From assembly GCF_030296675.1 (NCBI RefSeq), contig NZ_AP027736.1:124001-188000 (forward strand): a stretch of 64,000 nucleotides of DNA, read 5' to 3'. Below the pieces are notes generated by a model. The model was not told where the DNA came from, made no database searches, and saw only the letters and a program-made list of their open reading frames with translations. The translations under genes were made by a program, and so were the position numbers. Within the stretch, counting starts at the first letter, position 1. Each line of letters starts with the position of its first letter. This stretch comes from Demequina sediminis. GTDB taxonomy: Bacteria > Actinomycetota > Actinomycetes > Actinomycetales > Demequinaceae. Shown here in pieces: positions 4,690-48,764 of the stretch.

Positions 4690-5639
4690 GCACGGTCGCA
4701 GTCCTGGTCGAGTCCCGCGAGGGAGTCGTGACGCAGCCCACGTTCGAGGCGCTCACGCTCGCGCGTTCGCTCGGCACCCCCGTCGCGGTGTGGTTGGGGT
4801 CCGCCCCCGAGCCCGCGGAGGTCGCGCGGCTGGGGATTTACGGCGCCACCGAGGTGCGCGTGGTGCCCACAGGGGACGATGCTCGGGTGGTGTCGCGTGC
4901 GGCCGCCGCCCTGGGTGCGGCCACCGCGGATGCCGCGATCGTCGTGCTCATCTCGACATTCGTCAACAAGGAGATCGCGACGCGCCTCGCGCTCGCGACC
5001 GGTGCGGGCGTGGTCGTCGACGCCGCGGGAGCCGAGCTGGTCGACGGTCGCGTCGAGACCCTGCAGACCGTCTTCGCGGCGACGTGGAACGTGCGCACGC
5101 GCATCGAGTCCGACGCGGCGATCGTGGGCATCCGACCCAACACGACGCAGGCCCAGGCGGCCGAGACTCCCGGCGCCGCGACCCTGGTGACGGTCGAGGC
5201 CGCTCTTCCCGAGACTCGCGAGGCGATCGTGGCCGTCGAGCCCGTGCCCGCGAGCGACGGCGTGCCGCTGGCCGAGGCCCCCGTGGTGGTCTCGGGCGGT
5301 CGCGGCACCGGCGGCGACTACACGCTGGTGCGCGAGCTCGCCGAACTGCTCGGCGGCGCGGTGGGCGCGTCCCGCGATGCGACCGACGAGGGATGGATCT
5401 CGCACGAGCACATGGTGGGCCAGACCGGCACCACCGTGACCCCCGCGCTGTACGTGGCGTGCGGCATCTCGGGCGCGGTCCACCACCGCGGCGGCATGCA
5501 GGCCTCGGGGACGATCGTCGCGGTCAACATCGACCCCGATGCGCCGATCTTCGAGATCGCCGACTTCGGCGTGGTGGGCGACCTGGGTGACGTGCTCCCG
5601 CAGGCGATCGCACGCATCGAGGACCACCGCAGGGGCTAG
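4686..5639 (+). CDS. etfA: Electron transfer flavoprotein alpha subunit
   Basis: 317 residues. It carries the FAD of the ETF dimer. The N-terminal domain begins VAVLVESREG. The C-terminal FAD domain is clear: VVSGGRGTGG, then GAVGASRDATDEGW, VGQTGTTVTPALYVACGISGA and INIDPDAPIFEIADFGVVGD-like motifs (here VNIDPDAP). It overlaps etfB by 4 nt. The cysteine desulfurase and MnmA genes follow a few kilobases downstream, a frequent actinobacterial order, here split by an SDR and a nuclease gene. Confidence 0.93.
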   Translation: MSTVAVLVESREGVVTQPTFEALTLARSLGTPVAVWLGSAPEPAEVARLGIYGATEVRVVPTGDDARVVSRAAAALGAATADAAIVVLISTFVNKEIATRLALATGAGVVVDAAGAELVDGRVETLQTVFAATWNVRTRIESDAAIVGIRPNTTQAQAAETPGAATLVTVEAALPETREAIVAVEPVPASDGVPLAEAPVVVSGGRGTGGDYTLVRELAELLGGAVGASRDATDEGWISHEHMVGQTGTTVTPALYVACGISGAVHHRGGMQASGTIVAVNIDPDAPIFEIADFGVVGDLGDVLPQAIARIEDHRRG

Positions 5640-5651
5640 GAGCCGGGACGG

Positions 5652-6479
5652 TCAGTCCTCGCGGTCGATCCCGAGGGACAGGCCCTCCCAGCGGTCGACC
5701 TCCGCGCCCATTCGCGCCAACTTGGCCCTGGTCTGGGTGACCGCGTGGGCGCCGCAGATGAGGTGCAGCGGCGGCTCGGCCTCGTCGGCGAGCCGCAGCA
5801 TCGCCTCGGCGACCGCCGCGGGTGACCCGGGCTGGCGACCGGGGAGCGCGTGAATGCGCTCCCAGAACGGCTCCATCACCGGGGCATAGTCGGGCAGCAC
5901 GTCCTCGTTCTTGGCGCCGGATGGGATCCACTGCGAGCGGATGGGCCCGGGCTCGAGCAGCGTGACGCGGATGCCCAGGTGGGCGACCTCCGCCGCGAGT
6001 GCCTCCATGAATCCCGAGACCGCGAACTTCGACGCGCAGTAGTACCCCAGGCCGGCCGAGCCGCGCACGCCAGCGATCGATGACACCGTGAAGATGTGGC
6101 CGGATCGCTGCGCGCGGAGGTGGGGAAGCAGCGCGGTGGTGACCGCGGCGGCGCCCCAGAAGTTCGCGTCCATGACCTCGTGAGCGTCGGCGGAAGTCGA
6201 CTCCTCGATGGTCGAGAAGTAGCCGATCCCCGCGTTGTTGACCAGCACGTCCACCCGGCCAAACCGCGCGATCGCGGCCTCGACCGCCGCCGCCACCGCG
6301 GCATCGTCCCTCACCTCGAGCGGGAGGGCGAGCACCGTGTCGGGGAAGCGGTCGACCAGCGCCGCGAGGGTGTCGGGCCGGCGCGCGGTGGCGACCACGC
6401 GGTGGCCGGCGGCCGCGGCGGCCTCGGCGGTCGCACGGCCGATTCCGGTCGAGCAGCCGGTGATGAACCAGACGGCCAT
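5652..6479 (-). CDS. SDR family oxidoreductase
   Basis: 275 residues, classical short-chain dehydrogenase. The NAD(P) motif is TGCSTGIG near residues 8-15. Then come VLVNNAGIGYFS, the catalytic Ser in VSSIAG and YYCASK (Tyr and Lys). The Arg in the ATARRPDT strand end suggests an NADPH preference. The substrate cannot be told from sequence. A good ribosome site (GGAGG) precedes the ATG at 6479. It converges on etfA with a 12-nt gap. Confidence 0.88.
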   Translation of the reverse strand: MAVWFITGCSTGIGRATAEAAAAAGHRVVATARRPDTLAALVDRFPDTVLALPLEVRDDAAVAAAVEAAIARFGRVDVLVNNAGIGYFSTIEESTSADAHEVMDANFWGAAAVTTALLPHLRAQRSGHIFTVSSIAGVRGSAGLGYYCASKFAVSGFMEALAAEVAHLGIRVTLLEPGPIRSQWIPSGAKNEDVLPDYAPVMEPFWERIHALPGRQPGSPAAVAEAMLRLADEAEPPLHLICGAHAVTQTRAKLARMGAEVDRWEGLSLGIDRED

Positions 6480-18769: not shown

Positions 18770-18794
18770 GGGCACACACATCACGGGAGGTCGC

Positions 18795-19881
18795 GTGGCC
18801 GACTACCAGGGCATACTTCAGCCCGGCGAGAACCTGGACGGTTCCGCCTACCTTCCCGCCGACGCGTCGACGGTGGGATGGGGCCGGCTGCCGCGACGCG
18901 GAGACGCGCCCGTGGTGACTCTCGACCCGGGTGACGAGATCACGATCGACACGGTGAGCCACGAGGGCCTGTTGCCCGATCAGGGGCAGGATCCGGCCGC
19001 GTTCTTCGGCGCTCACGGCGTGCCGAGGAGCGCGTCCTGGACGACGCGATCGCGATCGCGGCGACCCGCACGCGCCGCGCAGAGGACGGCCCTCACGTGG
19101 TGAGCGGGCCCATCGCGGTGCGGGGCGCCCGGCCGGGCGACCTGCTCGCGATCACGCTGCTCGAGGCCACGCCGCGGGTCGACTACGGCGTGATTTCCAA
19201 CCGCCACGGGCGCGGCGCGTTGGCTGGCGAGATGCCCGCCGGGCCGCACGACGTCAGCGTCTTCACGCCCATCTCCCTGGAGGCGGACGGAGAGTGGCGG
19301 GGCCGCCTCCCGCTCACCGAGGGCGGCGAGCGCGCGGTGTCCTTTCCGCTCGCGCCGTTCCTGGGCATCATGGGCGTCGCGACGGACACCGCCGAGCGCG
19401 CCCACTCGGTGCCCCCGGTGCGCACGGCGGCAACGTCGACATCCGTCACCTCACTGAGGGCGCGACGCTCTACGTCCCCGTCCAGGTGCCCGACGCGCTC
19501 GCGTACGTGGGCGACCCGCACTTCGCGCAGGGCAACGGAGAGGTCGCGCTCACCGCGCTCGAGGCCTCGCTGCGGGTGCGCGTCCGGTTCGACCTTCTTG
19601 ACGCGACCGATGCGGCACGCGAGTTCGGCACCCTCGCCGGTCCGCTCGCCGCCGATGCGACGCACCTCATGCCCACCGGCATTGACGCCGACCTCGACGA
19701 GGCCATGAGGGCCTGCGTGCGTCAGGCGATCGCCCTCCTGGGAGCCCGGTATGGCATGGCACCCCACCTGGCCTACGCGTATCTGTCGGCGGCCACCGAC
19801 TTCGAGATCTCCCAGGTGGTCGACCTGGTGAGCGGCGTCCACGCGCGCATCCGTCGCGCCGACTTCGAGGAGGTCCTGTGA
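18795..19881 (+). CDS. Acetamidase/formamidase (FmdA) family amidohydrolase, two frameshifts
   Basis: About 362 residues. The family hydrolyses small amides to acid and ammonia. Seen are VTLDPGDEITIDTVSHEG near the N-terminus, VSGPIAVRGARPGDLLAITLL, FLGIMGVA with the downstream glycine-rich loop PPGAHGGNVDIRHLTEGATLYVPV, HFAQGNGEVA and AYLSAATDFEISQVVD at the end; all are typical. One G is missing at 19025 and one at 19417. GTG at 18795 has GGGAGG before it. It overlaps the AtzH-amidase gene by 4 nt, so its job is probably tied to purine nitrogen; oxamate or a related small amide is a guess. Confidence 0.88.
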
Positions 19882-21457
19882 CCCTTCCGTCCGTGACGGG
19901 CGACGCGCCCGAGGGCCTGGTCGAGGCCGTGCTCGCGTACGAGGCGGCGCTCGCGGCCGACGATCAGGAGGCGCTCGCGGCGTTCTTCGTGCCCGCGGCC
20001 GACACGCTGCGGGCCGACGCGAACGGGCTGCTCGTGGGCCACGACCGCATCACGGCCTTCCGGGGCCGCCGTGGAGGTGCGGGAGTGCGCGAGGTGCGCG
20101 AGCTGCGTGTTCACGTGCTCGGCGACGCCGCCGCCCACGTGGTCACCGTCAACGCCCCCGCCTCGGGAGGACGCGGAGCCGTCTCTCAGCTGTGGGTGAG
20201 AAACGAGTCCGCGGGCTGGCGCATCGCCGCCGCCCATGTCACCGCCCCCGCCCGTGCGATCGATCAGCGTGTGTGGCGTGTGGTCGGGGCGCCGTTGGTC
20301 GCGGGCGCTCCCGACGGGCCTCTCGCGGGGGAGACGGTCGCGGTCAAGGATCTCTTCGCGATCGCTGGCCACCGCATCGGGGTGGGCGTGCGTGCGTACC
20401 TCGCCGAGTCGCCGCTCGAGCACCGCACGGCCCCTGCGGTTGCCGCCCTGGTGGACGCGGGGGCTGACGTGGTCGGCATCGCGCAGACCGATCAGTTCGC
20501 GTACTCGATCGCCGGGCTCAACCCCGACTACGGCACGCCGGTGAACCCCGCCGTGCCCGGTGGGATCCCGGGCGGCTCCAGTTCGGGGCCCGCGAGCGCG
20601 GTCGCGCTCGGCCAGGCGAGCATCGGGCTCGGCACCGACACCGCCGGCTCGATCCGCGTCCCCGCGTCCTATCAGGGACTGTGGGGTCTGCGCCCGACCC
20701 ACGGCGCGGTGTCGCTCGAGGGGTGGCGCCGCTCGCTCCGCGCTACGACACGGTCGGTTGGCTGACGCGAGACGGGGGAACGATGCTGCGGGCGGCCCGC
20801 GTGGGACTGGCCGGGTCCGGCGCGGCGCGGCCCTCAGGTGGTCTGCGCGGCGGTGGCGCGCACACCGGCGACCTGGTCGCCGCGCCTGGCGCGATGGCGT
20901 CGTGCGCGGAGCCCGTGCGGGAGGCCTTCGACCGGGCCGTCGAGCGGCTGGTCGCGACCGGACGCGAGGTCGACGCCGTCGAGCTTCCCGCCCTCGACGA
21001 GCTGCTCATGACGTTCCGCGTCACGCAGTCCGCCGAGGCGTGGCGCTCCGACGGCGCGTGGGTCGACGCCCATCCGGGCGCGCTCGCCCCCGACGTTGCC
21101 GCGCGCTTCGCGTGGGCGCGCGACGTCACCCCCGAGCGCGAGGCGGCGGCCCTCGCCGACGCCGCGCGGCTCGCCGCCGCTCTCGATCACGCGCTCGGTG
21201 ACGCCGTCCTGCTCATCCCCGCCGCGGCATCGGCCGCCCCGGCGCTCGACGCGCCCGATGCGGAACTCGAGGAACGACGCCAGGCGACGCTGGGCATGAC
21301 CGCGATCGCTGGCATCGCGGGGCGGCCCGCGCTGTCCGTGCCGCTGCTCGTGACCCCGGAGGGTCCCGTGGGGCTGTGCCTCGTGGGGCCGAGGGGGAGT
21401 GATCTCGCGCTGGTCGAGCTCGGCCTCGAGCTCGAGGATCACCTGGCGCGCGCATGA
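19878..21457 (+). CDS. AtzH/HpxZ-like domain fused to amidase, one frameshift
   Basis: About 526 residues. Residues 1-125 form a SnoaL-like AtzH/HpxZ domain (VEAVLAYEAALAADDQEALA, QLWVRNESAGWRIAAAHVT). Residues 130-526 are an amidase-signature enzyme with the Lys-Ser-Ser triad: K157 in VAVKDLF, cis-Ser in PGGSSSGPAS (about 234) and S258 in GTDTAGSIRVP. In Klebsiella the separate proteins HpxZ and HpxY (AtzE-like) are tied to oxalurate use; here they are one chain, next to PucG, which makes oxalurate. One G is missing at 20721-20724. An allophanate- or biuret-type substrate remains possible. Confidence 0.85.
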
Positions 21458-21531
21458 CGTCCCGCAATCCCCGCGTAACATCCGTGCGGCACACTGTGTA
21501 AGTCACACCAACATTTCGTGGGAGGCCAGCC

Positions 21532-22772
21532 ATGCCCCTGCCCGGCCCGATCGACCCGCCGGCCCGACTCCTCATGGGCCCGGGGCCCATCACGGCCGAC
21601 CCGCGCGTGCTGCGCGCGATGTCGGCCCAACTCGTGGGGCAATACGACCCGTACATGACCCAGGTCATGGCCGAGGTGCAGGAGCTGTATCGGGGGTGTT
21701 CGAGACCGCCAACCCGCAGACGCTGCTCATCGATTCGACGGCGCGCGGAGCGATCGAGGCGGCGCTCGTGTCGATCGTGTCGCCGGGGGACAGGGTGCTC
21801 GTGCCCATCATGGGGCGCTTTGGTCACCTGCTCGCCGAGATCGCGGGCCGTAGCGGCGCCGAGGTCCACACGCTCGACGTCCCGTGGGGGCGCGTCGCCG
21901 AGATCGACGCGATCGCGGCGGCCATGGAGCGCGTGCGCCCGCGGGTCCTCGCGATGGTGCATGGCGACACGTCGACGACGATGATGCAGCCCTTCGAGGG
22001 GTTGCGCGAACTGTGCGACCGCTTCGACTGCCTGCTCTATGCCGACGTCACCGCGACGCTGGGCGGCAACCCGTTCCCCGTGGACGGCTGGGGAGTCGAT
22101 GCGGCGACCGCGGGGCTCCAAAAGTGCTTGGGCGGGCCGTCCGGCTCTGCTCCCGCGACGTTCTCGCCGCGCGCCGTCGAGGCGATCGAGGCACGCCGGT
22201 CGATCGAGGCGGGCATCCGCGTCGAGGGGGACCCGGTGGCGGCGGCTCCCATCCGCTCGAACTACTTCGACCTCGCGATGATCTTCGACTACTGGGGGCC
22301 GCGCCGGCTCAATCACCACACCGAGGCCACCACGATGCTCTACGGCGCCCACGAGTGCGCGCGCCTCGTGCTTGACCAGGGACTGGCGGCGTACCAGGAG
22401 CGTCACGCCCTGCACGGGGCCGCGATGCTCGCCGGCGTCGAGGGGCTCGGCCTCGAGGTCTACGGCGATCGCGCACACAAGATGGCGAACATCGTCGGAG
22501 TGGTGATCCCCGAGGGCGTCGACGGCGAGGCCGTGCGCGGCGCGCTGCTCGAGGAGTGGGGCATCGAGATCGGCACCTCGTTCGGACCGCTCGCGGGCCG
22601 CGTGTGGAGGATCGGCACCATGGGCTACAACGCGCGCCGCGACGCCGTGCTCACGACGCTGGCCGCGCTCGAGGCGGTGCTGCGTGCGCAGGGCCATGCG
22701 GTGCCCACGGTCGGCGGTGTCGAGGCCGCAGGCGAGTGCTACGTGAACGCCGGCGACGGGTCGCCGGCGTGA
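21532..22772 (+). CDS. pucG: PucG-like (S)-ureidoglycine-glyoxylate aminotransferase, one frameshift
   Basis: 413 residues, class V aminotransferase. PucG moves the amino group of ureidoglycine to glyoxylate, giving oxalurate and glycine. The family opening RLLMGPGPITADPRVLRAMS, LLIDSTARGAIEAAL, VHGDTSTTMMQP, ADVTATLGGNPF and the PLP lysine in AGLQKCLGGPSG are seen. An alanine-glyoxylate aminotransferase would look alike, but the allantoate amidohydrolase overlapping its end supports PucG. One G is missing in the run 21692-21696. A GGGAGG site precedes the ATG. Confidence 0.88.
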
Positions 22773-24040
22773 AGAGGTCCCGCGCGCGGGGCGCGTCGCC
22801 CGCCGCGATCGCCGACGCGCGCGAGGCGCTGCGCCGCTGCGACCTGCTCGCCGGGGTCTCGGCTCGCGAGGGCGCGATCGAGCGCGTCTACCTGTCGCCC
22901 GAGCACGCCCGCGCCAACGCGATCGTGTCCGGGTGGATCGCGGACGCGGGGATGAGTGCCTGGCAGGACGCCGCGGGCAACGCGCGCGGCACGTACCCCG
23001 GCGCGACGCCGGACGCCCCCGTGCTGTTGCTGGGCTCGCACCTCGACACCGTTCCCGACGCGGGCCGCTACGACGGCATCCTGGGCGTGATGATCGCGCT
23101 CGCGGTGGTCGCGCGGCTATCCGCGCGCGGCGTGCGGCTTCCCTTCGGGATCGAGGTGCTGGGCTTTGCCGATGAGGAGGGCGCGAGGTTCGGCCGCACG
23201 CTGCTGGGCTCGTGCGCCGTCGCAGGCACGTGGGAGGAGGGCTGGCTCGAACTGCGGGACGACTCCGGCATCACCCTGCGCGACGCCCTCATCACCTTTG
23301 GGCTCGACCCCGACGCGGTCGCCACCGCCGCGCTCGACCCCGCGCGCGTCGTGGGCTATCTCGAGGCGCACATCGAGCAGGGGCCGCTGTTGCTCGACGC
23401 GGACCGGCCGCTCGGCGTCGTGTCGGGAATCATGGGGGCCAAGCGCTTCGACCTCGCGATGGACGGTCAGGCGGGACACGCGGGCGGGGTGCCGATGCGT
23501 CATCGCCGCGATGCACTGCTGGGCGCGGCGGCGACCGCGCTCGCGGTCGAACGGGTCGCGCTCGACGAGGGAGTGGTCGGCACGGTCGGAGAGCTGAGGG
23601 TGTTCCCCGGCGCCGCCAACGTCATCCCTGGCCGCGCGGAGTTCTCGCTCGACGTGCGCGCAGCGACGGACGCCCACCGCGACCGGGCGTGGGAGGCGAT
23701 CCGCGCGCACGCTCTCGAGGCGGCGGGTGAACGGCGGCTCACCTTCACCGAGAACCTGCGCCATGTCGCGCGCGCGACCTCCTCCGAGCGCCGCCTCAGC
23801 GAGGCGATCGAGCACGGCATTCGCACCGCGACGGGCGAGGAGCGGCCGCTCGAGCTGCTGTCGAAGGCCGGTCACGACGCGATGGCGATCGCGTCCCTGA
23901 CGTCCTACGCGATGCTGTTCGTGCGGTGCGGCAACGGCGGCGTGAGCCACCATCCCGACGAGTCCGTGACGCTCGAGGACGTCGCACTCGCGATCGACGC
24001 TTTCGAGGCGGCCGTGCTCGCGGTCGCCGACCGCGCGTGA
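22769..24040 (+). CDS. Allantoate amidohydrolase (M20 family)
   Basis: 423 residues. It cleaves allantoate to ureidoglycine, carbon dioxide and ammonia. Metal-site motifs are complete: GSHLDTVPDAGRYDGILG, FADEEGARFG, LEAHIEQGP and the late SHHPDESV. N-carbamoyl-amino-acid hydrolases share these, but the operon place directly after pucG makes allantoate the likely substrate. The GTG start overlaps the pucG stop. Confidence 0.9.
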   Translation: MKRSRARGASPAAIADAREALRRCDLLAGVSAREGAIERVYLSPEHARANAIVSGWIADAGMSAWQDAAGNARGTYPGATPDAPVLLLGSHLDTVPDAGRYDGILGVMIALAVVARLSARGVRLPFGIEVLGFADEEGARFGRTLLGSCAVAGTWEEGWLELRDDSGITLRDALITFGLDPDAVATAALDPARVVGYLEAHIEQGPLLLDADRPLGVVSGIMGAKRFDLAMDGQAGHAGGVPMRHRRDALLGAAATALAVERVALDEGVVGTVGELRVFPGAANVIPGRAEFSLDVRAATDAHRDRAWEAIRAHALEAAGERRLTFTENLRHVARATSSERRLSEAIEHGIRTATGEERPLELLSKAGHDAMAIASLTSYAMLFVRCGNGGVSHHPDESVTLEDVALAIDAFEAAVLAVADRA

Positions 24041-24050
24041 GCGGAGTGAC

Positions 24051-24644
24051 CTACCTGCCGTCGACGTCCGCCGTGTCGACGTCGTCCGCCTCGTCGACGT
24101 CGTCCGCCGCGCCGAGCCCTGTGCAGTCCACCTCGACCGCGCCGTGAGCGCGCAGGTACGCACCCGCCCCGCGGTCCCCGTTGAGCGTCGCGAGCAGCGC
24201 GTCGACGTGCGCGGCGCCGATCAGCACCGGATGACCGGGGGTGCCCGCATCGGTGGCCCTCGCGAGCACGGTGGGATCTCCCACCCAGTGCGACGCGACG
24301 CGAGCGACGGCCTCGGGCGCAAGTCGTGGCAGGTCCACGAGGGTGATGAGCACGGCCCCCGCGCCCGCGCCGCGGGCCGTCTCGAGGCCCGCGCGCAGGC
24401 TTGCCCCGAGCCCCGCGGCCCAGTCGTCCGCCACCACACCCGTGGTGTCGTCGGGGAGCAGCTCCGCCGCGGCATCGGCGCTCGCGCCAAGCACCGCGAT
24501 GACGGGCGCGCACCCCACCCCGGCGAGAAGGCGACAGGCGCGAGGGAGCCAGGCCCCGGCATCGTCCCTCACCAGGGCCTTCGGGCCGCCCAGCCGCGAA
24601 CCGGCGCCCGCCGCAAGCACCACGCCTGCGAGTCGCTCTGCCAT
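24051..24644 (-). CDS. MocA/MobA-like nucleotidyltransferase
   Basis: 197 residues. The N-terminus LAGVVLAAGAGSRLGGPKAL is the NTP-binding loop of molybdenum-cofactor cytidylyl/guanylyltransferases; VDLPRLAPEAVARV and GHPVLIG follow. It probably loads a nucleotide on the molybdopterin of the xanthine dehydrogenase encoded further on. The C-terminal tail is rich in Asp and Val repeats (DDVDEADDVDTADVD), likely disordered. The ATG at 24644 is preceded by TAGGAT at 7 nt. It converges on the allantoate gene by 10 nt. Confidence 0.85.
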   Translation of the reverse strand: MAERLAGVVLAAGAGSRLGGPKALVRDDAGAWLPRACRLLAGVGCAPVIAVLGASADAAAELLPDDTTGVVADDWAAGLGASLRAGLETARGAGAGAVLITLVDLPRLAPEAVARVASHWVGDPTVLARATDAGTPGHPVLIGAAHVDALLATLNGDRGAGAYLRAHGAVEVDCTGLGAADDVDEADDVDTADVDGR

Positions 24645-24651
24645 GCTGGAC

Positions 24652-24657
24652 ATCCTA
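24652..24657 (-). promoter_or_regulatory. -10 element TAGGAT of leaderless mocA-like promoter
   Basis: On the minus strand TAGGAT ends 7 nt before the ATG at 24644. It overlaps, on the other strand, the GGAGG ribosome site of uraD. Confidence 0.55.
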
Positions 24658-24667
24658 AGGAGGACGC

Positions 24668-25141
24668 ATGATCGAACCCACCCGCGAGGAACTCCTCGCG
24701 TGTCTGCACGTCGAGCGCTGGGCGGACGCGCTCGCGGCCCGCGCGTACGCGACGATGCTCGAACTTGAGCGCGCCGCGGTCGCTGCCGCGACGCCGCTGT
24801 CGCCCGCCGAGATCGACGAGGCGCTCGCGGCGCACCCCCGCATCGGGGACCGGCGCGACGGGGACGATGCCGAGGCGCGGTTCTCGCGCGAGGAGCAGTC
24901 CGCATCGGCGTCGGCAGACCAGGCTCTGGCCGCGCGGCTCGCGGCGCTCAACGCGGAGTACGAGGAGCGCTTCGGGCGCGTGTTTGTGATCCGCGCGGCC
25001 GGGCGCTCGCGCGAGGAGATTGTGGCCGAACTCGAACGGCGGCTGGACAACGAGCCCGGTGTCGAACTGGCCGAGGTGGCCGATCAGCTGCGTGGGATCG
25101 CCCTGCTGCGCCTGCGCGCGACCTATGGAGGTGAGTCATGA
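24668..25141 (+). CDS. uraD: OHCU decarboxylase
   Basis: 157 residues. It decarboxylates 2-oxo-4-hydroxy-4-carboxy-5-ureidoimidazoline to (S)-allantoin, the last step of urate oxidation. The diagnostic HPRIGD (catalytic His) and FSREEQSA, LNAEYEERFGRVFVI and ELAEVADQLRGIALLRL are present. AAGGAGG precedes the ATG. The stop overlaps the uraH start. Confidence 0.95.
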   Translation: MIEPTREELLACLHVERWADALAARAYATMLELERAAVAAATPLSPAEIDEALAAHPRIGDRRDGDDAEARFSREEQSASASADQALAARLAALNAEYEERFGRVFVIRAAGRSREEIVAELERRLDNEPGVELAEVADQLRGIALLRLRATYGGES

Positions 25142-25458
25142 GTCACGTCACCACGCATGTGCTCGACGCGGCGCACGGCCGTCCCGCGGAGGGGGTCCAC
25201 GTGCGGCTCCTGCACGGCGACGTCGAGGTCGCGGTCGGGGTGACCGACTCCGACGGGCGCGTGGGCTCGCTCGGGCCCGATGTGCTGCATCCCGGCACGT
25301 ACACGATGGTGTTCGCGACCGGCGCGTGGTTCGCGGACCGCGGGGTCGCGACGTTCTATCCCGAGGTGCGCATCCCGTTCGCGGTCGACGGCGAGCCGCA
25401 CTACCACGTGCCGCTGCTGCTCAGCCCGTTCGCGTACTCGACGTACCGCGGCAGTTGA
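25138..25458 (+). CDS. uraH: 5-hydroxyisourate hydrolase
   Basis: 106 residues, transthyretin-like. It hydrolyses 5-hydroxyisourate, the uricase product. THVLDAAHGRPAEGVHVRL opens the chain, FYPEVRIPF is central and the diagnostic C-terminal YRGS is present. It is translationally coupled with uraD (ATGA overlap). Confidence 0.95.
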   Translation: MSHVTTHVLDAAHGRPAEGVHVRLLHGDVEVAVGVTDSDGRVGSLGPDVLHPGTYTMVFATGAWFADRGVATFYPEVRIPFAVDGEPHYHVPLLLSPFAYSTYRGS

Positions 25459-29493: not shown

Positions 29494-30903
29494 TCACATT
29501 TCCGGCGCGACCACCCGCTTGCCCGCGACGTACACCTCGGCGATCGCCGGCTGCCGCAGCCCCATGAGCAGCGTGAACAGCTCCTCGAGGGTCGCCTGCT
29601 CCTCATCATCCGAGCGGATTCCCATGGTGAGCATCCCCTCGAGCGGCTCCCAGCGCGACACGTCGATCAGCAGGAAGTCGGCGTCCTTGCCCGCGTCGAG
29701 GTTGCCGAACGCGTGCTCCATGTCGAGCGCCCTGGCCCCCGCGAGCGTCGCCGCGAACAGCAGCTCCGCGGGGTGCAGCGCCGTCCCCGCGTCCCCCTCC
29801 TCGGAGATGTGGACCTTGTAGCAGTCGCCGGCCACGCGCGAGATGAGCCACTCGTCGCCGGCCCCCACGTCGGTGCCCAGCGCCACGTTGACCCCCGCGT
29901 CGACGGTCGCCCGCCACGGCATCGTCCCTGAACCGAGGAACAATTGGGACGTGGGGCAATGCGCGATCGACGTGCCCGTCTCCGCCATTCGCGCAAGTTC
30001 GCGAGGCTGCGAGTGGACCGCATGCGCGAGCGAGGAGCGCCGGCCCAGCAGCGAGTGGCCGCCGACCTTCGAGCCGGGAAGGAAGCGTCCGTCGTACGTG
30101 TCGAGGTAGGTCTCGACGCCGTACTGGCCGAGCACCGCCGCGATCTCGCCGTCGCCCTTGCGGTTGTTCTCGTTGAGGTGGCTGTGGAAGTACACGCCGC
30201 GCAGCTGTGCCTCGTCGTACAGCTCGCCCATCGCCGCGAGCGTGAGCGGCGTCACCGACAGCGAGAAGCGCGGGACGATCGCCACCTGCACGTGAGCGGT
30301 GCGCGGGTCGCCCGTGTCGACCGCGTGCCAGCGGTCGATCTCGTCCGCGACCAGTGAGATCGCGGTGTCTTCCGACGTGAGGAGGGCCGATGCCGCGGGT
30401 GGCCCCACCGTCTGGACGCCCCGCCCGGAGACGATGCGCAGTCCCGCCTCGAGCGTCGAGCGGTACAGCGCGTCCTGCGCCACGGGGAAGGCGCTGCCGA
30501 AGACCATCGCGGCGGTGGTGCCCGCCGCGATGCGGCGGCGCGCGAAGTACCTCGCGGCGCGGTCGGCAAAGTCGGGATCCGCGAACTGTGACTCGGTGGG
30601 GAAGATGCAATGGTCGAGCCATTCGAGCAGCTGGCCGCCGCCGTGAGCCGCCGTCGCATACGACTGGGGGAAGTGCACGTGCGCGTCGACGAAGCCGGGC
30701 AGGAGGTAGTCCGCCCGGGTGACCGGGGCATCGTCCCACTGCGGCGGCAGCGCCGCGAACTCACCCAGCCACAGGATCTCGCCGTCCCCCGAGACCACGA
30801 GCGCGCCGTCGGGGAGCGAGACCAGCGCGGCGGGGACCTCGGACTGGGCCGGGGCGCCCGCGATGTGGAAGACGTGGGCGCGATAGACGTGCGTCCCGCT
30901 CAC
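29494..30903 (-). CDS. guaD: Guanine deaminase
   Basis: 469 residues, zinc amidohydrolase. It converts guanine to xanthine. Metal ligands: HVHF in PGFVDAHVHFPQ, the His of YFHSHLNENNRKGDGE, and the Asp of ALGTDVGAGDEW. HCPTSQLFLGSG is diagnostic for the family. The GTG start overlaps the uricase stop by 4 nt, so guanine deaminase and uricase are made together. The product feeds the xanthine dehydrogenase. Confidence 0.93.
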   Translation of the reverse strand: MSGTHVYRAHVFHIAGAPAQSEVPAALVSLPDGALVVSGDGEILWLGEFAALPPQWDDAPVTRADYLLPGFVDAHVHFPQSYATAAHGGGQLLEWLDHCIFPTESQFADPDFADRAARYFARRRIAAGTTAAMVFGSAFPVAQDALYRSTLEAGLRIVSGRGVQTVGPPAASALLTSEDTAISLVADEIDRWHAVDTGDPRTAHVQVAIVPRFSLSVTPLTLAAMGELYDEAQLRGVYFHSHLNENNRKGDGEIAAVLGQYGVETYLDTYDGRFLPGSKVGGHSLLGRRSSLAHAVHSQPRELARMAETGTSIAHCPTSQLFLGSGTMPWRATVDAGVNVALGTDVGAGDEWLISRVAGDCYKVHISEEGDAGTALHPAELLFAATLAGARALDMEHAFGNLDAGKDADFLLIDVSRWEPLEGMLTMGIRSDDEEQATLEELFTLLMGLRQPAIAEVYVAGKRVVAPEM

Positions 30904-31802
30904 ACCAGCCCCGTGTACTGCTGCCATGCCGGACCCGCGGCGGGCGCGTCCTCGCGGGTCACGGAGGCCTGGATGAGTCCGTAGGGGCGGTCGTCGGCGT
31001 GGAAGACCTCGTTGGCGTTGTCGATGCCGAAGCGCCCCAGGTCGTACAGGAAGTGGTGCTTGTTGGGCGCGCTGAGTCGCACCTCGACCAGCTCGGGCAC
31101 GGCCTCGAGTGCGGCCTTGCCCATCTCGTAGAGCGTCTGCTGGAGCGCGAGAGAGTGGTGGTCCGCGAACGTCTCGACCAGGGCGGCCTTGATCTCCGCG
31201 TAGGACTCGTCGAAGTCGAACGTCGCGGCGTCCACGTCGCCGAATCGCCACTTCGCGACCAGCGAGGTCGCCATGATGCGATCGGACGTGGGCTCGAGGA
31301 CCGTGTACTCGTCGGAGAGGAAGCCGTGGAACTCCGAGCCGGTGGACTTCAGCACGGTGAGGTCCTTGAGGCCGCCGGTGATCCACGTCGCGCCGTCCTC
31401 GACGGTGACCGCGACGGTTCGCACCTCCTGGCCCGCACGCACCCACGTGTGGTCGTGCTCCGCGCCGCCCACGCTCACGCGCTCCCACGCGAACTCCTCG
31501 AGCTCGACCCTCGCCTGGTCGACGGGCTCGATATCCGCGATGAAGTGCGTCGCGAGGGCGAGGGCGTACCGCTCGAGGCTTGCGAGTCCGACCGTCTTGG
31601 CGTACGCGTAGGCCGTCTGCTTCTGCGTGTCGGTCGGCAGGACGGCACCCTGGTCGCCGGTGAGGTGGGCGTCGTCGAAGCGGCCCCGGAGGCACGTCGA
31701 GACGTTGACGTCGCGGATCTCGTGGCGCGCGCTGTCGCGCACGATTCGGACGATGCGGTTCTCGGCCTTGCCGTACTGGTTGTCGCCCAGAATGATGCCC
31801 AT
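30900..31802 (-). CDS. Urate oxidase (uricase)
   Basis: 300 residues, cofactor-free. It oxidises urate to 5-hydroxyisourate. The T-fold motifs VLPTDTQKQTAYAYA (catalytic Thr) and LKDLTVLKSTGSEFHGFLSDEYT are present, with LSAPNKHHFLYDL near the end carrying the proton-relay His. AAGGG lies before the ATG. It heads a two-gene operon with guaD and its upstream region has a strong inverted repeat. Confidence 0.95.
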   Translation of the reverse strand: MGIILGDNQYGKAENRIVRIVRDSARHEIRDVNVSTCLRGRFDDAHLTGDQGAVLPTDTQKQTAYAYAKTVGLASLERYALALATHFIADIEPVDQARVELEEFAWERVSVGGAEHDHTWVRAGQEVRTVAVTVEDGATWITGGLKDLTVLKSTGSEFHGFLSDEYTVLEPTSDRIMATSLVAKWRFGDVDAATFDFDESYAEIKAALVETFADHHSLALQQTLYEMGKAALEAVPELVEVRLSAPNKHHFLYDLGRFGIDNANEVFHADDRPYGLIQASVTREDAPAAGPAWQQYTGLV

Positions 31803-31868
31803 GGTGGAGCCCTTCGATCGGATGGTCAGGCGTGCATGCAGCGCCCCTCGGTCCACGGTAGCCACCGC

Positions 31869-31898
31869 GCGTTACGTGGGCATTTCCTCACGTAACGC
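31869..31898. promoter_or_regulatory. Inverted-repeat operator upstream of uricase
   Basis: GCGTTACGTG (31869-31878), 10 nt, CACGTAACGC (31889-31898): a perfect 10-bp inverted repeat with centres two helical turns apart. A candidate -10, TACCGT on the minus strand, lies at 31855-31860, so the repeat covers the -35 zone of the uricase promoter. It is likely bound by the purine-catabolism regulator, whose identity is not known. Confidence 0.7.
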
Positions 31899-33191: not shown

Positions 33192-34502
33192 TTAGGGCCG
33201 CCCGATCATGACGCCGTCCGCCGTCTCGGATCCGCCGATCCACACGCGCCGCGCACGGCCCATGAGTCGCGCGCCGTCGAATGCGCTCACGGGGTTGCGG
33301 TGTTCGAGGTCCGCCGCGTGTACCTCGAATGGCGCGTCCGGCGCGAAGGCCACGAGGTCCGCGTCGCGCCCGACCGAGATCGCGCCCTTGCCGCCCAGCC
33401 CCGCCCATGCGGCGGGACGTGTGCTCACCCAGCCGACGGCATCGGCCAGAGGAAATCCGCGCGCCCGCGCCCCCGTCCACACGGCGGCCACCGACACCTG
33501 CAGCCCCGCGATCCCGCCCCACGCGGCGGCGAAGTCGCCCGCGCCGGCGAGCTTGAGCTCCGCGGTCGCGGGAGAGTGGTCCGAGGCCACGAAGTCGATC
33601 GTGCCGTCCGCGAGCGCCGCCCACAGCGCCTCGCGGTTCGCGGCGTCGCGGATGGGCGGGCAGCACTTGAACTGCGTGCCGCCCGCGGGGATGTGCTCGG
33701 CATCGAAGGTCAGGTAGTGAGGGCAGGTCTCGGCGGTGAGGGGCAGTCCTTCAGCCTTCGCGGCGGCCACCAAGGGCAGGGCCGATGCCGCGGACAGGTG
33801 GAGGATGTGCGCGCGCACCCCGGTGGCGCGCACCCCGTCGATGACGGCCGCGATCGCGCTCAGCTCGGACGCCTCGGGGCGCGAGTCGACAAAGCCCTGG
33901 TAGTCGCGGCCTCCCGCATGGGGCAGGAGCCCGGCAGGGTCCTCCGCATGCACGATCAACCTGCCCCCAAAGCCGGCGATCTCCTCCATCGCGGAGCGCA
34001 GCTGCCCGCGGTCGAGGTGGCCGAACTCGTCGACGCCGCTGGGCGCGAGGAAGCACTTGAAGCCGAACACCCCCGCGTCCCACAGCTCGCGCAGGGAGCC
34101 CAGATTCTCGGGTACCGCTCCGCCCCAGAACCCCACCGTGACGTGGGTCTTGCCTGTGGCCGCCGCGCGCTTGGCGTCGAGAGCCGCCGGAGTAGTCGTG
34201 GGCGGGATCGAGTTGAGCGGCATATCAATCAGGGTGGTCACGCCGCCCGCACGCGCGGCACGGGTCGCCGAGTCGAAGCCCTCCCACGCGGTGCGGCCGG
34301 GCTCGTTGACGTGCACGTGGGTGTCGACCGCGCCCGGCAGCAGGACCTCGTCAGGAGCCAGCGTGATCTCCGCTCGCGCATCGACCGGCGCATCGACAGA
34401 GGTGATGGCGACGATCCTCCCGCCCGCGATGGCGACCGCGGCGGGGCCCTCGCCGCCCGGCAGGATGGCGCGCGGCGCGCGAATGACGAGGTCCGAGGTC
34501 AT
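33192..34502 (-). CDS. allB: Allantoinase
   Basis: 436 residues, cyclic amidohydrolase. It opens allantoin to allantoate. Metal ligands: HVHVNEPG in AVDTHVHVNEPGRTAWEGF, the carbamylated Lys in GFKCFLAPSGVDEF, HAEDP, HILHLSAASAL, and the Asp of VASDHSP. EPGRTEWEGF-type spacing separates allantoinase from hydantoinase and dihydroorotase. GGAGGG precedes the ATG at 34502. It diverges from xdhC. Confidence 0.94.
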   Translation of the reverse strand: MTSDLVIRAPRAILPGGEGPAAVAIAGGRIVAITSVDAPVDARAEITLAPDEVLLPGAVDTHVHVNEPGRTAWEGFDSATRAARAGGVTTLIDMPLNSIPPTTTPAALDAKRAAATGKTHVTVGFWGGAVPENLGSLRELWDAGVFGFKCFLAPSGVDEFGHLDRGQLRSAMEEIAGFGGRLIVHAEDPAGLLPHAGGRDYQGFVDSRPEASELSAIAAVIDGVRATGVRAHILHLSAASALPLVAAAKAEGLPLTAETCPHYLTFDAEHIPAGGTQFKCCPPIRDAANREALWAALADGTIDFVASDHSPATAELKLAGAGDFAAAWGGIAGLQVSVAAVWTGARARGFPLADAVGWVSTRPAAWAGLGGKGAISVGRDADLVAFAPDAPFEVHAADLEHRNPVSAFDGARLMGRARRVWIGGSETADGVMIGRP

Positions 34503-34524
34503 GAGATCCCTCCGGGTCGGGTGA

Positions 34525-34530
34525 CAGACT
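34525..34530 (+). promoter_or_regulatory. -10-like CAGACT upstream of xdhC
   Basis: CAGACT ends 7 nt before the GTG at 34538; no ribosome site fits, so a leaderless message is likely. It differs from TANNNT at the first base. Confidence 0.4.
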
Positions 34531-34537
34531 GGCGCTC

Positions 34538-35458
34538 GTGTTCGAGATCGCGCGAGAGGCGCTGGCAGTGCTCCACGAGGGCGGCTCGCTGGGGGTCGTG
34601 GTGGTGACGGGAGTGCACGGCTCGACGCCGCGCGCGCCGGGATCCGCCATCGCGGTGTGCGCGGACGGGCGCGCCTTGGGCGCCGTCTCGGGCGGCTGCA
34701 TCGAGGGCGAGGCCTACGAGCTCGCGTTGTCGCGCCTGGCAGATCGCTCTCCGCTGACGCAGACACTCGGCGGTGAGGGCGATCTCTACCGCCCGGGCCT
34801 CGCGTGTGGCGGAGCCGTCGACGTCCTCGCCTTCCACGTGGGACCTGGCGACCACGACATCGTCTCCGCGCTCGAGCGATCCCTCGAGGACGGCGAGGTC
34901 ACGCTGACCCTCCCCGGCGGCGCCGTCGTGACCCGACCGCGCGCGCCGCGGCTGGTCATCGTGGGCGCCGTCGACTTCACGCCCGCGCTCGCGGCGGCCG
35001 GCCGGGCGCTGGGATACCGCGTGATCGTGGTCGACCCGCGGCCGGTCTTCGCGACCCCCGAGCGGCTGCCCGCGGCGCACGAGGTGCACGTCGCGTGGCC
35101 CGACCGCTTCCTCGCGGGCCTCGAGATCGAGCCCAGCACGGTGATCTGCGTCCTCACGCACGACGACCGCATCGACGTTCCCGCGCTCGCGGCCGCGCTC
35201 GCGAGTCCCGCCGGCTACGTGGGCGCGATGGGTTCGCGGGTCGCGTCCGAGCGCCGGCTCGCCCGGTTGCGCGAGGCCGGGGTGGGGGATGATGCCCTGG
35301 CGAGGTTGCGCTCGCCGATCGGCCTGGATTTGGGCGGGTCGAGTCCCGCGGAGACCGCGGTCGCGATCCTCGCCGAGGTGATCGCGACGCGCGCGGGCGC
35401 GAGCGGGAGGCCGCTGGGCGAGACGCGCGGGCCGATTCATCCCCGTCACGAGTCCTGA
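34538..35458 (+). CDS. xdhC: XdhC/CoxI family molybdoenzyme maturation protein
   Basis: 306 residues. XdhC proteins bind molybdenum cofactor and help its sulfuration and insertion into xanthine dehydrogenase. Family motifs: VTGVHGSTPRAPGSAIAV, GAVSGGCIEGEAYE, the GLACGGAVDVL motif, then a Rossmann-like C-terminal half with ILTHD-type CVLTHDDRID and YVGAMGSRVASERR. It ends tail-to-tail with the xanthine dehydrogenase gene, overlapping by 13 nt. Confidence 0.93.
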   Translation: MFEIAREALAVLHEGGSLGVVVVTGVHGSTPRAPGSAIAVCADGRALGAVSGGCIEGEAYELALSRLADRSPLTQTLGGEGDLYRPGLACGGAVDVLAFHVGPGDHDIVSALERSLEDGEVTLTLPGGAVVTRPRAPRLVIVGAVDFTPALAAAGRALGYRVIVVDPRPVFATPERLPAAHEVHVAWPDRFLAGLEIEPSTVICVLTHDDRIDVPALAAALASPAGYVGAMGSRVASERRLARLREAGVGDDALARLRSPIGLDLGGSSPAETAVAILAEVIATRAGASGRPLGETRGPIHPRHES

Positions 35459-38111
35459 GCGTCCCGCGGCGCGGATGACGCGAGGCGCCACACGCGGTCG
35501 CGCGTCATCGGCAGCTCCATGGGCCGCGCCCCGATCGCGCGGCGGATCGCGTTCGCGAGCGCGGGCGCGACGGGGTTGTAGGGCGACTCCGACATCGACT
35601 TCGCGCCCATCGGCCCGAGCACGTCCGAGGTGTCCGCGAAGTAGACCTCCGTGTCGGGCACGTCGGCCATCTGAGGCACGCGATACACGCGGAAGGCGGG
35701 GTTGGCAGGGGCGCCGTCCTCGCCCACAAGGACCTCCTCGTACAGCGCCGAGCCGATGCCCTGCGCGACGCCGCCCTCGACCTGGCCGCGGCACTGGGCG
35801 GGGTTGAGCACCACGCCCGCGTCGGCGGCCTGGACCGACTGCAGGATCCTGACCGTGCCGGTATCGGGTTCGACGGCAACGCGGAACGCCTGGACGTTGA
35901 ACGCGAGCGAGCGGACCTTGCCGTCCGTGGCGCCCTCCGCGGAGAGCCCCTCGGGCGGGATCTCCGCTCCCGCGTCGAGGCGTGCCCGTAGCGCGACGGC
36001 AGCGGCGTGCACGGCCTTGCCCGCGACCGTGATGCCGGTCGATCCCCACGCCCCCGTGTCGTGCGTGGTCGCGTCGGTGTCGGAGGTGCGCAGCCGCACC
36101 GCGGTGGGCGCGAGGCCCAGCGCCTCCGCGGCGATCTGCGTGAGCACCGTGTGCGTGCCATTGCCGAACTCGACCGTGCCTGCCGCGACCAGCGCGGTGC
36201 CGTCGGGGAAGGCCGTGACCGATGCGGTGGCGGGGTGACCGCGCGGCGGGATGGTGGCGATCATGCTGAGCGCCATGCCCTCGCCCACGGACCAACCGGC
36301 AGGGGCCTCGACGCCGTTGCCGCGTGCGAGCGCGGCCTCGGCCAGGTCGAGACACTGGTCAAGCCCGTAGGAACCGAAGACGAGGTCCTCATGGTGGCGC
36401 CGCTCCGTGACGCCGAGCTTGTCGCCGTCGCGGACCGCGTTGATGCGCCGCAGCTCGAACGGATCGATCCCGAGCTTCAGCGCCAGTTCGTCGAGCGCGG
36501 ACTCCACCGCGAAGATCACCTGCCCCAGCCCGTACCCGCGGAACGCTCCGGCCGGGGTCGTGTTCGTGTACACCACCTCGGCGTGGAGCCGCTTGGCGGG
36601 GAGCGGTAGGCCTCGAGGGACTCCGCGCAGCCGTGGAACATCACGCCGATGGCGTGATTGCCGTACGCGCCCGTATTCGAGAGCACCTCGATGTCCATCG
36701 CGGTGAGGCGGCCGTCCGAATCGGCACCCAGCGTGGCGGTGACGCGGAACGGGTGACGCGTCGCGGTGCGGATGAACTCCTCCTCGCGCGTCATCTCGTA
36801 CGCGACCGGCCGCCCGGTGTGCAGCACCGCGAGCGCCACGATGTCCTCGGTGAAGATCTCCTGCTTCCCGCCGAAGCCCCCGCCCACGCGCGCCGTGAAC
36901 ACGCGGATGGACCCGGGGTCGCGGCCCAGGACGAGCGCGAGCTCGTCGCGGGTCAGGAACGGCACCTGGCTGCTGGTCCGAAGGGTGAGGCGGCCGTCCT
37001 CGTCGATCCATCCCAGGCTGCCGTGCGTCTCCAGTTGCGCGTGGCTGACGCGCGCGGTCGACCAGGTGCCCGTCGCGATCGCGGTGGACCGCGCGAGGCC
37101 GCGGCCCACGTTGCCATAGCTGCCCCGCCACGAGGCGATGACGTTGCGGCCCGACTCGGCCACGCCGTCCTCGGGGGTCAGCCCCGGGTGGATCACCGGC
37201 GCGCCGGGGGAGCGCGCCTCCTCGGGGTCGAGCACGGCCGGCAGCACCTCGTACTCGACTCGCAGCGCGGCGCACGCCGCCTCCGCAATCCCGGCGGTCT
37301 CGGCCACCACTGCCGCGACGCGCTGGCCGCGGAAGCGCATCACGGAGTCGAGGATGCGGGTGTCGCGGGGGTCGTCCATCCGGGAGGCGTGCCGGGCGGT
37401 CGAGAAGCGGATGGCGGGCGCGTCCTCATGGGTGAGCACCGCGAGCACGCCCTCCATCGCGAGGGCCGCGGAGGCGTCGATGGAGACGATGCGCGCGTGG
37501 GCGTGCGGGGAGCCGAGCACCTTGAGATGAGTGAGGCCGGGCACGTCCGCGTCGAACGTGTACGGCTCGCGACCCTGCACCACCCGGGCCGCCGCGGGAG
37601 GCTGGGCGCTCGCGCCCACGGCGACCGGCGCATTGTCCGCCGCGCCCGTGCTGGGGCATCCCACGCATGCGCCGCCGCAGCCGCGGACGGCGTGCTCGAC
37701 GGCCTCGCGAATGGGTCGGTAGCCGGTGCAGCGGCACAGGTTGCCCTTGAGCTTGCGGTCCAGATCGGGGAGGTCGTCCTCCGTGAGCGTCGACGCGGTG
37801 ACGGTCATGCCGGGGGTGCAGAAGCCGCACTGGAAGGCGAAGTGGCGCGCGAAGGACTCCTGCACGGGGTGGAGGTCCTCGCCCGGAGCGAGGCCGCCGG
37901 CGGTGGTGATTGCCGCGCCGTCCGCCCGCTGGGCGGGATACAGGCACGAGTGCACGGGGGTGCCGTCCACCAGCACGGTGCATGCTCCGCAGTCGCCCGC
38001 GTCGCAGCCCTTCTTGACCTCGAAGGTGCCACGTTCGCGCAGGTACGTCCGCAGGCACTGGCCGGGGCGCGGCTCGCCCTCGAGGGGTGCGCCGTCGACG
38101 CTGATCCTCAC
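35446..38111 (-). CDS. Xanthine dehydrogenase, fused 2Fe-2S and molybdenum chain, one frameshift
   Basis: About 888 residues once one C is added at 36598-36601. It oxidises hypoxanthine and xanthine to urate. Residues 1-75 form the plant-type 2Fe-2S domain (C36, C41, C44, C56), residues 76-150 the second cluster domain (CGFCTPGM and CRCTGY). The Moco part has [19 protein letters not shown] and the catalytic Glu in [13 protein letters not shown]. The two parts are often separate genes; here they are fused by a short linker while FAD is on another gene. The GTG start overlaps that gene's stop. Confidence 0.92.
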
Positions 38112-38917
38112 GAGGCCTCCGCAAGATCGTTGATCACGCGCGCCGCGAGGACCCCGGCGACGTGCCTGCGCCAATCCGCGGCGCCGAGCGCGTCGGAGTA
38201 GTAACCCTCGGCAGACTGGGCCGCCTCGCGCGCCTCGGCCGGGGACGGAAGGGCATCCCAGCGGAGCACGGTGGGGGTGAGGGTCGCCGCGGTGATGACC
38301 ACCACCGCGGTGCCGTCCGCGTGCGCGCGGCCGCTCGCGACCGCGCCCGAACGGCCCAGCTCCGCGAGCGCGATCTTGTGCAGCGACGTGCGCGCGCCCA
38401 GCGCGTCAGCGGAGATGCGCACCTCCCGAACGAGCTCGCCGTGGGCGAGCGAGGTGGTGCCGTTTCCCGTGGGCAGCGACGCGACGGGGACGATGCGCTG
38501 GCCGCCATCGGGCGTCCAGATCACCGCATCCGCGTCGAGCGTCGCGCACGCGGCCAGCATCGCTCCGGCGGCGTAGGCGCGGCAGATGTTGCCGATGACG
38601 GTGGCCTCGTTCCAGATCTTGAAGCCCGCAAGTAGCGCATGGGCCGCCATCTCGAACAGCGGCTGCGCGGCCCAGCCGGGCCGCGCGGGCTCCGCGAGGA
38701 GCCGCGCGATGGTGCACGTCGGGCCGATCGCGAGCCCGGCATCGTCCACCCGCAGGACGTCCCACCCCATGCCCGACAGGTCGACCAGCCCCGTGACATC
38801 GGGGTTGGCCTCCGAGAACAGCCAGGTACCACCCGCGAGGAAGCGCTCGCCGGCGGCGAGGGTGAGGTCCGCGCGGGTGGTCGCGCGGCGGAAGCCGGTG
38901 ACGGCGGTGAGATCCAT
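38108..38917 (-). CDS. Xanthine dehydrogenase FAD-binding subunit
   Basis: 269 residues, CoxM/XdhB-like. It carries FAD between the iron-sulfur clusters and [25 protein letters not shown] is the first FAD loop, and [19 protein letters not shown] the second. It is a little short for the family at the C-terminus. GGAGGGAGG precedes the ATG. It is the first gene of the xdh operon and diverges from the ABC transporter. Confidence 0.9.
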
Positions 38918-39150
38918 GTCGCCTCCCTCCTGGCTGGCCTTGGTTCGGGGAAGTCTGCCACGGCCGAATGTCACGTTTGTGTCACGTGCGCACGAATTTA
39001 CGAGGGCGAAACACAAGTGCGCATGTTGGTGAAATCTACATTCCCTAGCGTCGACCGCGACGCCCCGGGCATGCGCCCGGCCGTCGACGGAACCACCCCA
39101 CCACTGTTCCGCCCGACGGATGCCGCGTCCACTCAACGAGGGAGAACCAC
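38918..39150. promoter_or_regulatory. Divergent control region of xdh and ABC transporter operons
   Basis: 233 nt. A direct repeat TGTCACGT-N3-TGTCACGT lies at 38969-38987 and may be an operator. TACATT at 39037-39042 could be a -10 box for the transporter; TAAATT on the minus strand at 38995-39000 could serve xdh. No matching -35 boxes are convincing, which fits activator control. Confidence 0.45.
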
Positions 39151-40233: not shown

Positions 40234-40235
40234 TC

Positions 40236-45712: not shown

Positions 45713-48764
<3,052 letters not shown>

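Follow-up and report, generated by a model that had tools for sequence, protein, structure and literature searches.

A block of four genes in the genome of the actinobacterium Demequina sediminis may be the final part of an actinobacterial operon for purine (ureide) breakdown, in which oxalurate would be degraded by an unusual pair of enzymes. The block lies at 18.8-24.0 kilobases (kb), on the plus strand, of a 64,000-nucleotide (nt) stretch of contig NZ_AP027736.1 (positions 124,001 to 188,000; hereafter the window). It encodes, in this order, an FmdA_AmdA-family protein, an AtzH-like domain fused to an amidase, a PucG-type class V aminotransferase and an allantoate amidohydrolase (AllC). Allantoate amidohydrolase yields ureidoglycine, and PucG transaminates ureidoglycine with glyoxylate to give oxalurate and glycine. 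We tentatively propose that the AtzH-amidase fusion takes oxalurate and the FmdA-type protein takes oxamate, the end products being oxalate, CO2 and ammonia. Many actinobacteria probably finish oxalurate in this manner, with a divergent FmdA-type protein and an AtzH-amidase in place of the Klebsiella enzymes.

A sequence-only reading of the window had described four head-to-tail genes on one strand, with two 4-nt overlaps, as a possible new oxalurate branch. The order and the coordinates were borne out, but three of the four genes are frameshifted in this assembly and cannot be read as open genes. Because the gene finder often chose wrong-strand open reading frames (ORFs) in this 71% G+C DNA, we based gene presence on tblastn and profile matches. 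The fmdA-like gene (18795-19881), a divergent member of the acetamidase/formamidase family, carries two frameshifts and was recognized with PF03069 and by tblastn with the intact homologue from a relative locus, L049. The fusion begins in a single ORF (19878-20765) that contains an AtzH-like domain (approximately 19920-20243; PF11533, 63.9 bits, cut-off 27) and the N-terminal part of an amidase-signature domain (PF01425, 132.3 bits); the C-terminal part of the amidase follows in another frame (20681-21457; PF01425, 37.7 bits; tblastn match at 20717-21451). The pucG-like gene for a ureidoglycine-glyoxylate aminotransferase (21532-22772), with one frameshift near 21.69 kb, is matched by its L049 homologue in two frames at 80% and 70% identity. 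AllC (22769-24040) is the only whole gene of the block in this assembly. Both overlaps are present and recur in relatives: the FmdA stop at 19881 overlaps the GTG of the fusion frame at 19878, as the corresponding stop and start do in 24 of 64 relative loci in which both ORFs could be delimited, and the PucG stop at 22772 overlaps the AllC GTG at 22769, an arrangement shared by 43 of 63 relative loci.

The block is widely conserved. Among the 80 named loci that best match the fusion, a sample biased toward similar sequences, 67 carry FmdA, PucG and AllC with the fusion, FmdA lying just 5′ of it, which rules out a chance neighbourhood. These loci come from Demequina, Microbacterium, Frigoribacterium, Cellulomonas, Herbiconiux, Agreia, Isoptericola and other genera. 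Counted singly, PucG and FmdA each occur in 73 of them and AllC in 71, with none of the three in 3 loci; several of the missing genes reflect contig ends. The distribution of FmdA within Demequina follows that of PucG: of 44 genomes, whose counts are less independent than they seem owing to shared ancestry, 30 have PucG, and FmdA is found in 29 of these 30 against 0 of the 14 that lack PucG. The lone genome with PucG and no FmdA (G005) is 85% complete. The fusion is present in 34 of the 44 genomes, including all 30 with PucG, although in two of the 34 (G005 and G018) only the amidase part was matched; PucG is never found among the 44 unless the fusion, or else its amidase part, is present too.

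Enzymes that might otherwise act on this branch were absent where they were sought. HpxW, which we take to be a GGT-like protein, was said by the sequence-only reading to be missing from the window. Its superfamily, PF01019, has no member in any of the 44 Demequina genomes, that of D. sediminis (93% complete) included, so that an HpxW encoded elsewhere in the genome is ruled out; some member of the superfamily occurs in 30 of 99 relatives overall. A bypass by an AllA-type ureidoglycolate lyase is likewise ruled out, as PF04115 matched in 0 of 99 relatives while the Escherichia coli control was positive. Because FmdA tracks PucG, and because HpxW and ureidoglycolate lyase are absent from these genomes, the FmdA-type protein and the fusion likely carry oxalurate to oxalate.

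The AllC product passes NF006775 (508.3 bits, cut-off 479), a match that agrees with an HpxK-type enzyme through a model that is not HpxK-specific. No NCBIfam model scored over its cut-off with PucG, and the best match of the L049 protein is the Klebsiella ureidoglycine-glyoxylate aminotransferase (PDB 3NNK, E 3.3e-168), with the PucG structure 3ISL at E 2.7e-130. The fusion is intact in many Demequina genomes and is 522 amino acids long in L049. Lys158, Ser235 and Ser259 of its amidase domain are kept in 44 of 44 fusions, and these residues presumably form the Ser-cisSer-Lys triad of the Amidase signature family (PF01425). When the AtzH domain is aligned to the AtzH crystal sequence, all 44 fusions keep the residues at the positions of Tyr22, Arg63, Arg73 and Gln108, and 43 of 44 keep those at Arg46 and Arg66. 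Tyr22 and Arg46 are the residues implicated in AtzH through mutagenesis, according to PMC6219798. The predicted structure of the amidase (predicted local distance difference test, pLDDT, 93.2; predicted template modelling score, pTM, 0.81) is nearest to 2dc0, malonamidase E2, GatA, AtzE and AtzF.

The FmdA-type protein belongs to its family by PF03069, which gives 72.2 bits on the ORF at 19294-19881 (cut-off 27), a sub-threshold 25.1 bits at 19097-19708 and no match at 18795-19103; the model scores 111.8 bits on the FmdA of another relative locus, L131. Its predicted structure (pLDDT 90.0) resembles acetamidase and formamidase structures, and GGNxD and GDPHFAQGxGE, which are largely common to the solved relatives, are among the invariant columns of 35 block FmdA proteins. 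It resembles the FmdA/AmdA formamidases and acetamidases in fold and in these motifs, but differs from the formamidases in falling far under the formamidase equivalog cut-off of 500 bits (NF045496), the intact protein of L049 scoring 74.8. Judged by sequence, the block FmdA is a divergent family member far from formamidase by this curated cut-off. Separate FmdA genes in some other families of the order score 568-580 bits with Pfam's model.

What we observed directly are gene content, conservation, co-occurrence and active-site residues, from which we infer what substrates the two hydrolases take and in which order they act. In the proposed route, the amidase domain of the fusion would strip the terminal amide nitrogen from oxalurate to give N-carboxyoxamate, and the AtzH domain of that polypeptide would then remove the N-carboxylate as CO2 to leave oxamate. 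The FmdA-family enzyme would hydrolyse oxamate to oxalate and ammonia. FmdA would stand in the position of HpxW, and the fusion in that of HpxX, HpxY and HpxZ. Two loci, L181 (8141-13247; genome G293) and L188 (1966-9704; G141), have FmdA-amidase, PucG and AllC in a block without the AtzH domain; there, a start codon of the amidase frame and the FmdA stop overlap, and the rest of either genome yielded no AtzH-like gene. These two cases fit an AtzH step that merely speeds a decarboxylation that also runs unaided. A separate AtzH domain encoded away from the block was considered and rejected, as 38 of 99 genomes have one over-cut-off match each, all of them at the fusion site by an eye comparison. 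The search for an AtzG/HpxX-like partner (PF13318) gave 0 of 49 genomes, and the control genomes gave no match either.

Similar steps are known from three other systems. The Klebsiella hpx branch (HpxJ, HpxK, HpxW-X-Y-Z) also places a ureidoglycine aminotransferase and an allantoate amidohydrolase beside an AtzH-like/amidase pair and a further amide hydrolase. The Demequina block differs from it in having the FmdA family in place of HpxW, and in joining AtzH to an amidase that is PRK08310-like rather than AtzE-like on one chain. HpxW itself is described as an oxamate amidohydrolase in PMC5270733. The AtzG-AtzE-AtzH system of cyanuric acid breakdown in Pseudomonas sp. ADP (PMC6219798) likewise combines an amidase with an AtzH-type NTF2-fold domain whose catalytic Tyr and Arg are kept here, whereas the block version is fused, uses another amidase subfamily, has a partly changed pocket and sits in a purine context. 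The AllFGH oxamic transcarbamylase of E. coli acts on oxalurate at the same pathway position but, according to PMC11326118, yields carbamoyl phosphate and oxamate through other proteins. We found no description of an AtzH-amidase fusion, or of an FmdA protein in oxalurate breakdown, in the open-licence PMC papers searched. The purine operon itself is ordinary in kind; a variant at its last steps is plausible and, as far as we found, new.

Several findings weigh against the assignment of the fusion to oxalurate and of FmdA to oxamate. Both proteins fall far under the curated cut-offs for HpxZ, AtzE and formamidase. The sequence-only reading had named the fused protein as HpxZ with an amidase: the fusion holds, both in the frame at 19878-20765 and in intact relatives, but by curated cut-offs the predicted protein is not HpxZ-HpxY. 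It scores 54.6 bits with the HpxZ equivalog NF033625 (cut-off 135), and the L049 fusion scores 132.8 with TIGR02715 and 137.9 with NF006631, two AtzE-family models with cut-offs of 425.75 and 461. The closest model for the L049 amidase is NF006169 (PRK08310), at 367 bits and below its cut-off of 391. Within the AtzH domain, the aligned positions of Phe94 and Arg96 are not conserved, and that of Gln106 is Q in 28 of 44 fusions. PucG and FmdA are both missing from four Demequina genomes that have the fusion (G009, G022 and G032) or just its amidase part (G018), and 4 of the 80 best loci have PucG and the fusion without FmdA within the examined stretch. No oxalyl-CoA decarboxylase scored over its cut-off in 49 relatives, among which no search for oxalate decarboxylase was made. 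In three of the four Demequina genomes without PucG or FmdA (loci L048, L068 and L073, the last with an amidase lacking the AtzH part), the fusion or amidase gene stands near one for a YtcJ-like amidohydrolase.

The remaining points against this assignment come from a class-wide survey. In an even sample of 394 genomes, the fusion profile (E ≤1e-90) matched at 52 places in 51 genomes; our counts cover 40 of these, leaving out G000, G047, G054 and G056, which were already in the set, and eight others. The 40 loci comprise 26 with a full-length fusion and 14 that are amidase-only, meaning a profile match without the AtzH part, although G134 nonetheless has an AtzH match beside the amidase. Sixteen full-length loci carry PucG (15 of them also FmdA), so that one of the 16 lacks FmdA within the examined stretch. 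The other 10 of the 26 lack PucG: seven have instead a RutB/BiuH-like isochorismatase gene (two of them also FmdA) and three have neither. Among the 14 amidase-only loci, two have PucG and seven have the isochorismatase gene (five also with FmdA). The fusion is therefore not exclusive to PucG-derived oxalurate. Because this second context lacks PucG and carries an isochorismatase gene instead, the fusion and FmdA parts make up a module that can be entered in at least two ways, and only at loci with PucG is its connection to oxalurate firm. Loci of the second kind include L135 (8811-12315), L171, L172 and L189-L193, in which FmdA and an AtzH-amidase, or an amidase-only match, lie beside or near RutB/BiuH-like isochorismatase and creatininase-family genes; L135 and L172 also have an NMT1-type ABC transporter.

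The proposal of a new oxalurate branch thus stands in part. The conservation of the block, the tracking of PucG by FmdA and the absence of HpxW and ureidoglycolate lyase where tested speak for it, and the PucG-less fusion loci speak against it. The outcome set beforehand as refuting it, blocks found mostly without pucG, was not seen: PucG accompanies the fusion in most of the 80 best loci and in most of the full-length loci of the class sample. A wider version is possible, though we hold it with less confidence than the route itself. The divergent FmdA clade would be an oxamate (or oxalurate) hydrolase that replaces HpxW non-orthologously, the fusion would by itself turn oxalurate into oxamate, carrying its own N-decarboxylase and working with no AtzG-like partner, and the same parts would be reused behind a RutB/BiuH-like hydrolase in a second nitrogen-heterocycle pathway with an intermediate that resembles oxalurate or oxamate.

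The two hydrolases could also act the other way round, with FmdA deaminating oxalurate terminally, the AtzH domain decarboxylating the product and the amidase domain hydrolysing oxamate. This order fits the data almost as well, since the fusion would again join two consecutive steps, and the amidase has a structure close to that of malonamidase E2, an enzyme that acts on malonamate, the analogue of oxamate with one more carbon. The RutB/BiuH-like hydrolase, which occurs without FmdA in the examined stretch of 5 of the 26 full-length loci, could perform the ureido step and leave the rest to the fusion. The relatives of FmdA are, however, named for simple amides, and from what is known of the family oxamate is closer to those than oxalurate. 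The AtzE-like HpxY is tied to oxalurate in the Hpx pathway, and PMC12625717 calls it an oxalurate amidohydrolase in the text and an oxamate carbamoyltransferase in a figure legend. We regard the reversed order as unlikely, if worth serious attention.

We consider it rather improbable that the fusion and FmdA work as a pair in general ureide/amide salvage, with a main substrate other than oxalurate, and are co-regulated with purine breakdown because both supply nitrogen. The PucG-less context would suit such a pair, with its RutB/BiuH-like hydrolase, the creatininase-family genes of several loci and the NMT1-type transporter of two, and none of the 40 class-sample loci contains both PucG and the RutB/BiuH-like hydrolase. 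Set against this, FmdA tracks PucG within Demequina save in one incomplete genome, and these genomes have no HpxW- or AllA-type gene to handle or bypass oxalurate (AllFGH was not searched for). Cleavage of oxalurate by the fusion on the oxalyl side, to oxalate and urea with FmdA in a side reaction, is chemically possible for an amidase-signature enzyme but would leave the AtzH decarboxylase-like domain without a role, and it seems to us very improbable.

If the frame breaks of the window were real, the strain would have lost the pathway and the block would be decaying. By tblastn with the intact L049 homologue, FmdA is matched in three frames (18774-19022, 18962-19417 and 19414-19869) with breaks near 18.96-19.02 and 19.41 kb. 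The fusion lies in two frames with a break near 20720, and PucG in two with a break near 21693, which makes four frameshifts across the three genes. We set the proteins encoded at 28 relative loci against the window, covering 24,428 bases, and relied on breaks that had the backing of 7 or more of these proteins. Six breaks have the support of 7 to 26 proteins (15.53, 17.70, 19.0, 19.41, 20.72 and 21.69 kb), those at 15.53 and 17.70 kb lying in genes outside the block; eight more events, four of them at 7.7-8.8 kb, have one supporting protein each. The 28 relative loci, treated in the same way as a control (465,562 covered bases, with support-1 events left out of the count), gave 24 events of support 2-8, several near the FmdA start or gene junctions, the highest being that at the FmdA-fusion junction of L043, with support 8.

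In favour of decay, FmdA, the fusion and PucG between them contain four of the six well-supported breaks, and the region at 21.7-31.7 kb otherwise shows a single event (24.65 kb), backed by one protein. Broken genes are, however, found elsewhere in the window as well: a xanthine dehydrogenase-like gene, a transporter gene, another gene, and ligA (NAD-dependent DNA ligase; 46495-48761), which is split across two frames near 48.2 kb, its second piece being identified by eye from a BRCT-like end. The ligA gene is normally essential. A G/C run of at least 4 stands beside all six supported breaks (background, 60% of 100-nt windows) and one of at least 5 beside three of the six (background, 18%). 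The window has 0.31 runs of exactly 6 per 10 kb, fewer than the 1.51 of the 28 relative loci. The genome is 92.99% complete, compared with at least 98% for 35 of 43 same-genus relatives. Because ligA is also broken and all six supported breaks lie at G/C runs, the breaks look like assembly errors; assembly indels are the likelier cause, although one assembly cannot prove it, and decay of the block is improbable.

The surrounding window contains further predicted purine-breakdown genes. Downstream of AllC lie a MobA-like nucleotidyltransferase gene that may serve xanthine dehydrogenase cofactor maturation (24051-24905, minus strand; PF12804, 96.1 bits) and, on the plus strand, genes for OHCU decarboxylase (24668-25141; PF09349, 131.8 bits) and hydroxyisourate hydrolase (25138-25458; TIGR02962, 116.9 bits, cut-off 87.45). 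The minus strand then encodes a guanine deaminase-like amidohydrolase matched in its C-terminal two thirds (29494-31695), which is below the cut-offs of NF006679 (331.1 against 351) and TIGR02967 (282.7 against 375.4), a cofactor-independent urate oxidase (30903-31871; TIGR03383, 345.8 bits, cut-off 168.4) and an allantoinase (33192-34766; PF01979; 53% identity over 421 columns to the L131 AllB, which passes TIGR03178). An XdhC-like gene follows on the plus strand (34505-35455), and a xanthine dehydrogenase-like molybdenum subunit lies in two overlapping frames on the minus strand (35446-38405; Pfam MoCoBD and NCBIfam XDH-type matches, none of the latter over cut-off for the partial frame). 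Together with AllC and PucG, these enzymes would cover the route from guanine to oxalurate, going by family matches.

Genes for an NMT1/THI5-type substrate-binding protein, an ABC ATPase and a permease (39049-42682) lie near xanthine dehydrogenase and may encode a purine-related transporter. The cluster varies among relatives. In L131, allantoinase lies directly 5′ of FmdA, and in L143 (Isoptericola) an HpxO-type flavin adenine dinucleotide (FAD) urate hydroxylase (4487-5680), which passes NF033623 and is unrelated to the cofactor-free uricase, stands in for that enzyme in an otherwise similar cluster. Many Demequina loci have a PhzF-like gene between AllC and the MobA-like gene (L035, 5195-6040) that is not at that place in the window, and three Microbacterium loci, L127 (14211-15059), L136 and L145, have a weak PhzF relative after AllC, at 30-31% identity.

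Oxalurate is a branch point whose enzymes have been assigned in few bacteria. From the block comes an assignment, open to testing, for two conserved actinobacterial proteins that their nearest curated models describe just as amidase and acetamidase/formamidase; it would also explain how purine breakdown ends in Demequina without HpxW or ureidoglycolate lyase. If the substrates hold, AtzH-type decarboxylation would extend beyond s-triazine breakdown, and the two natural losses of the AtzH domain would serve as controls.

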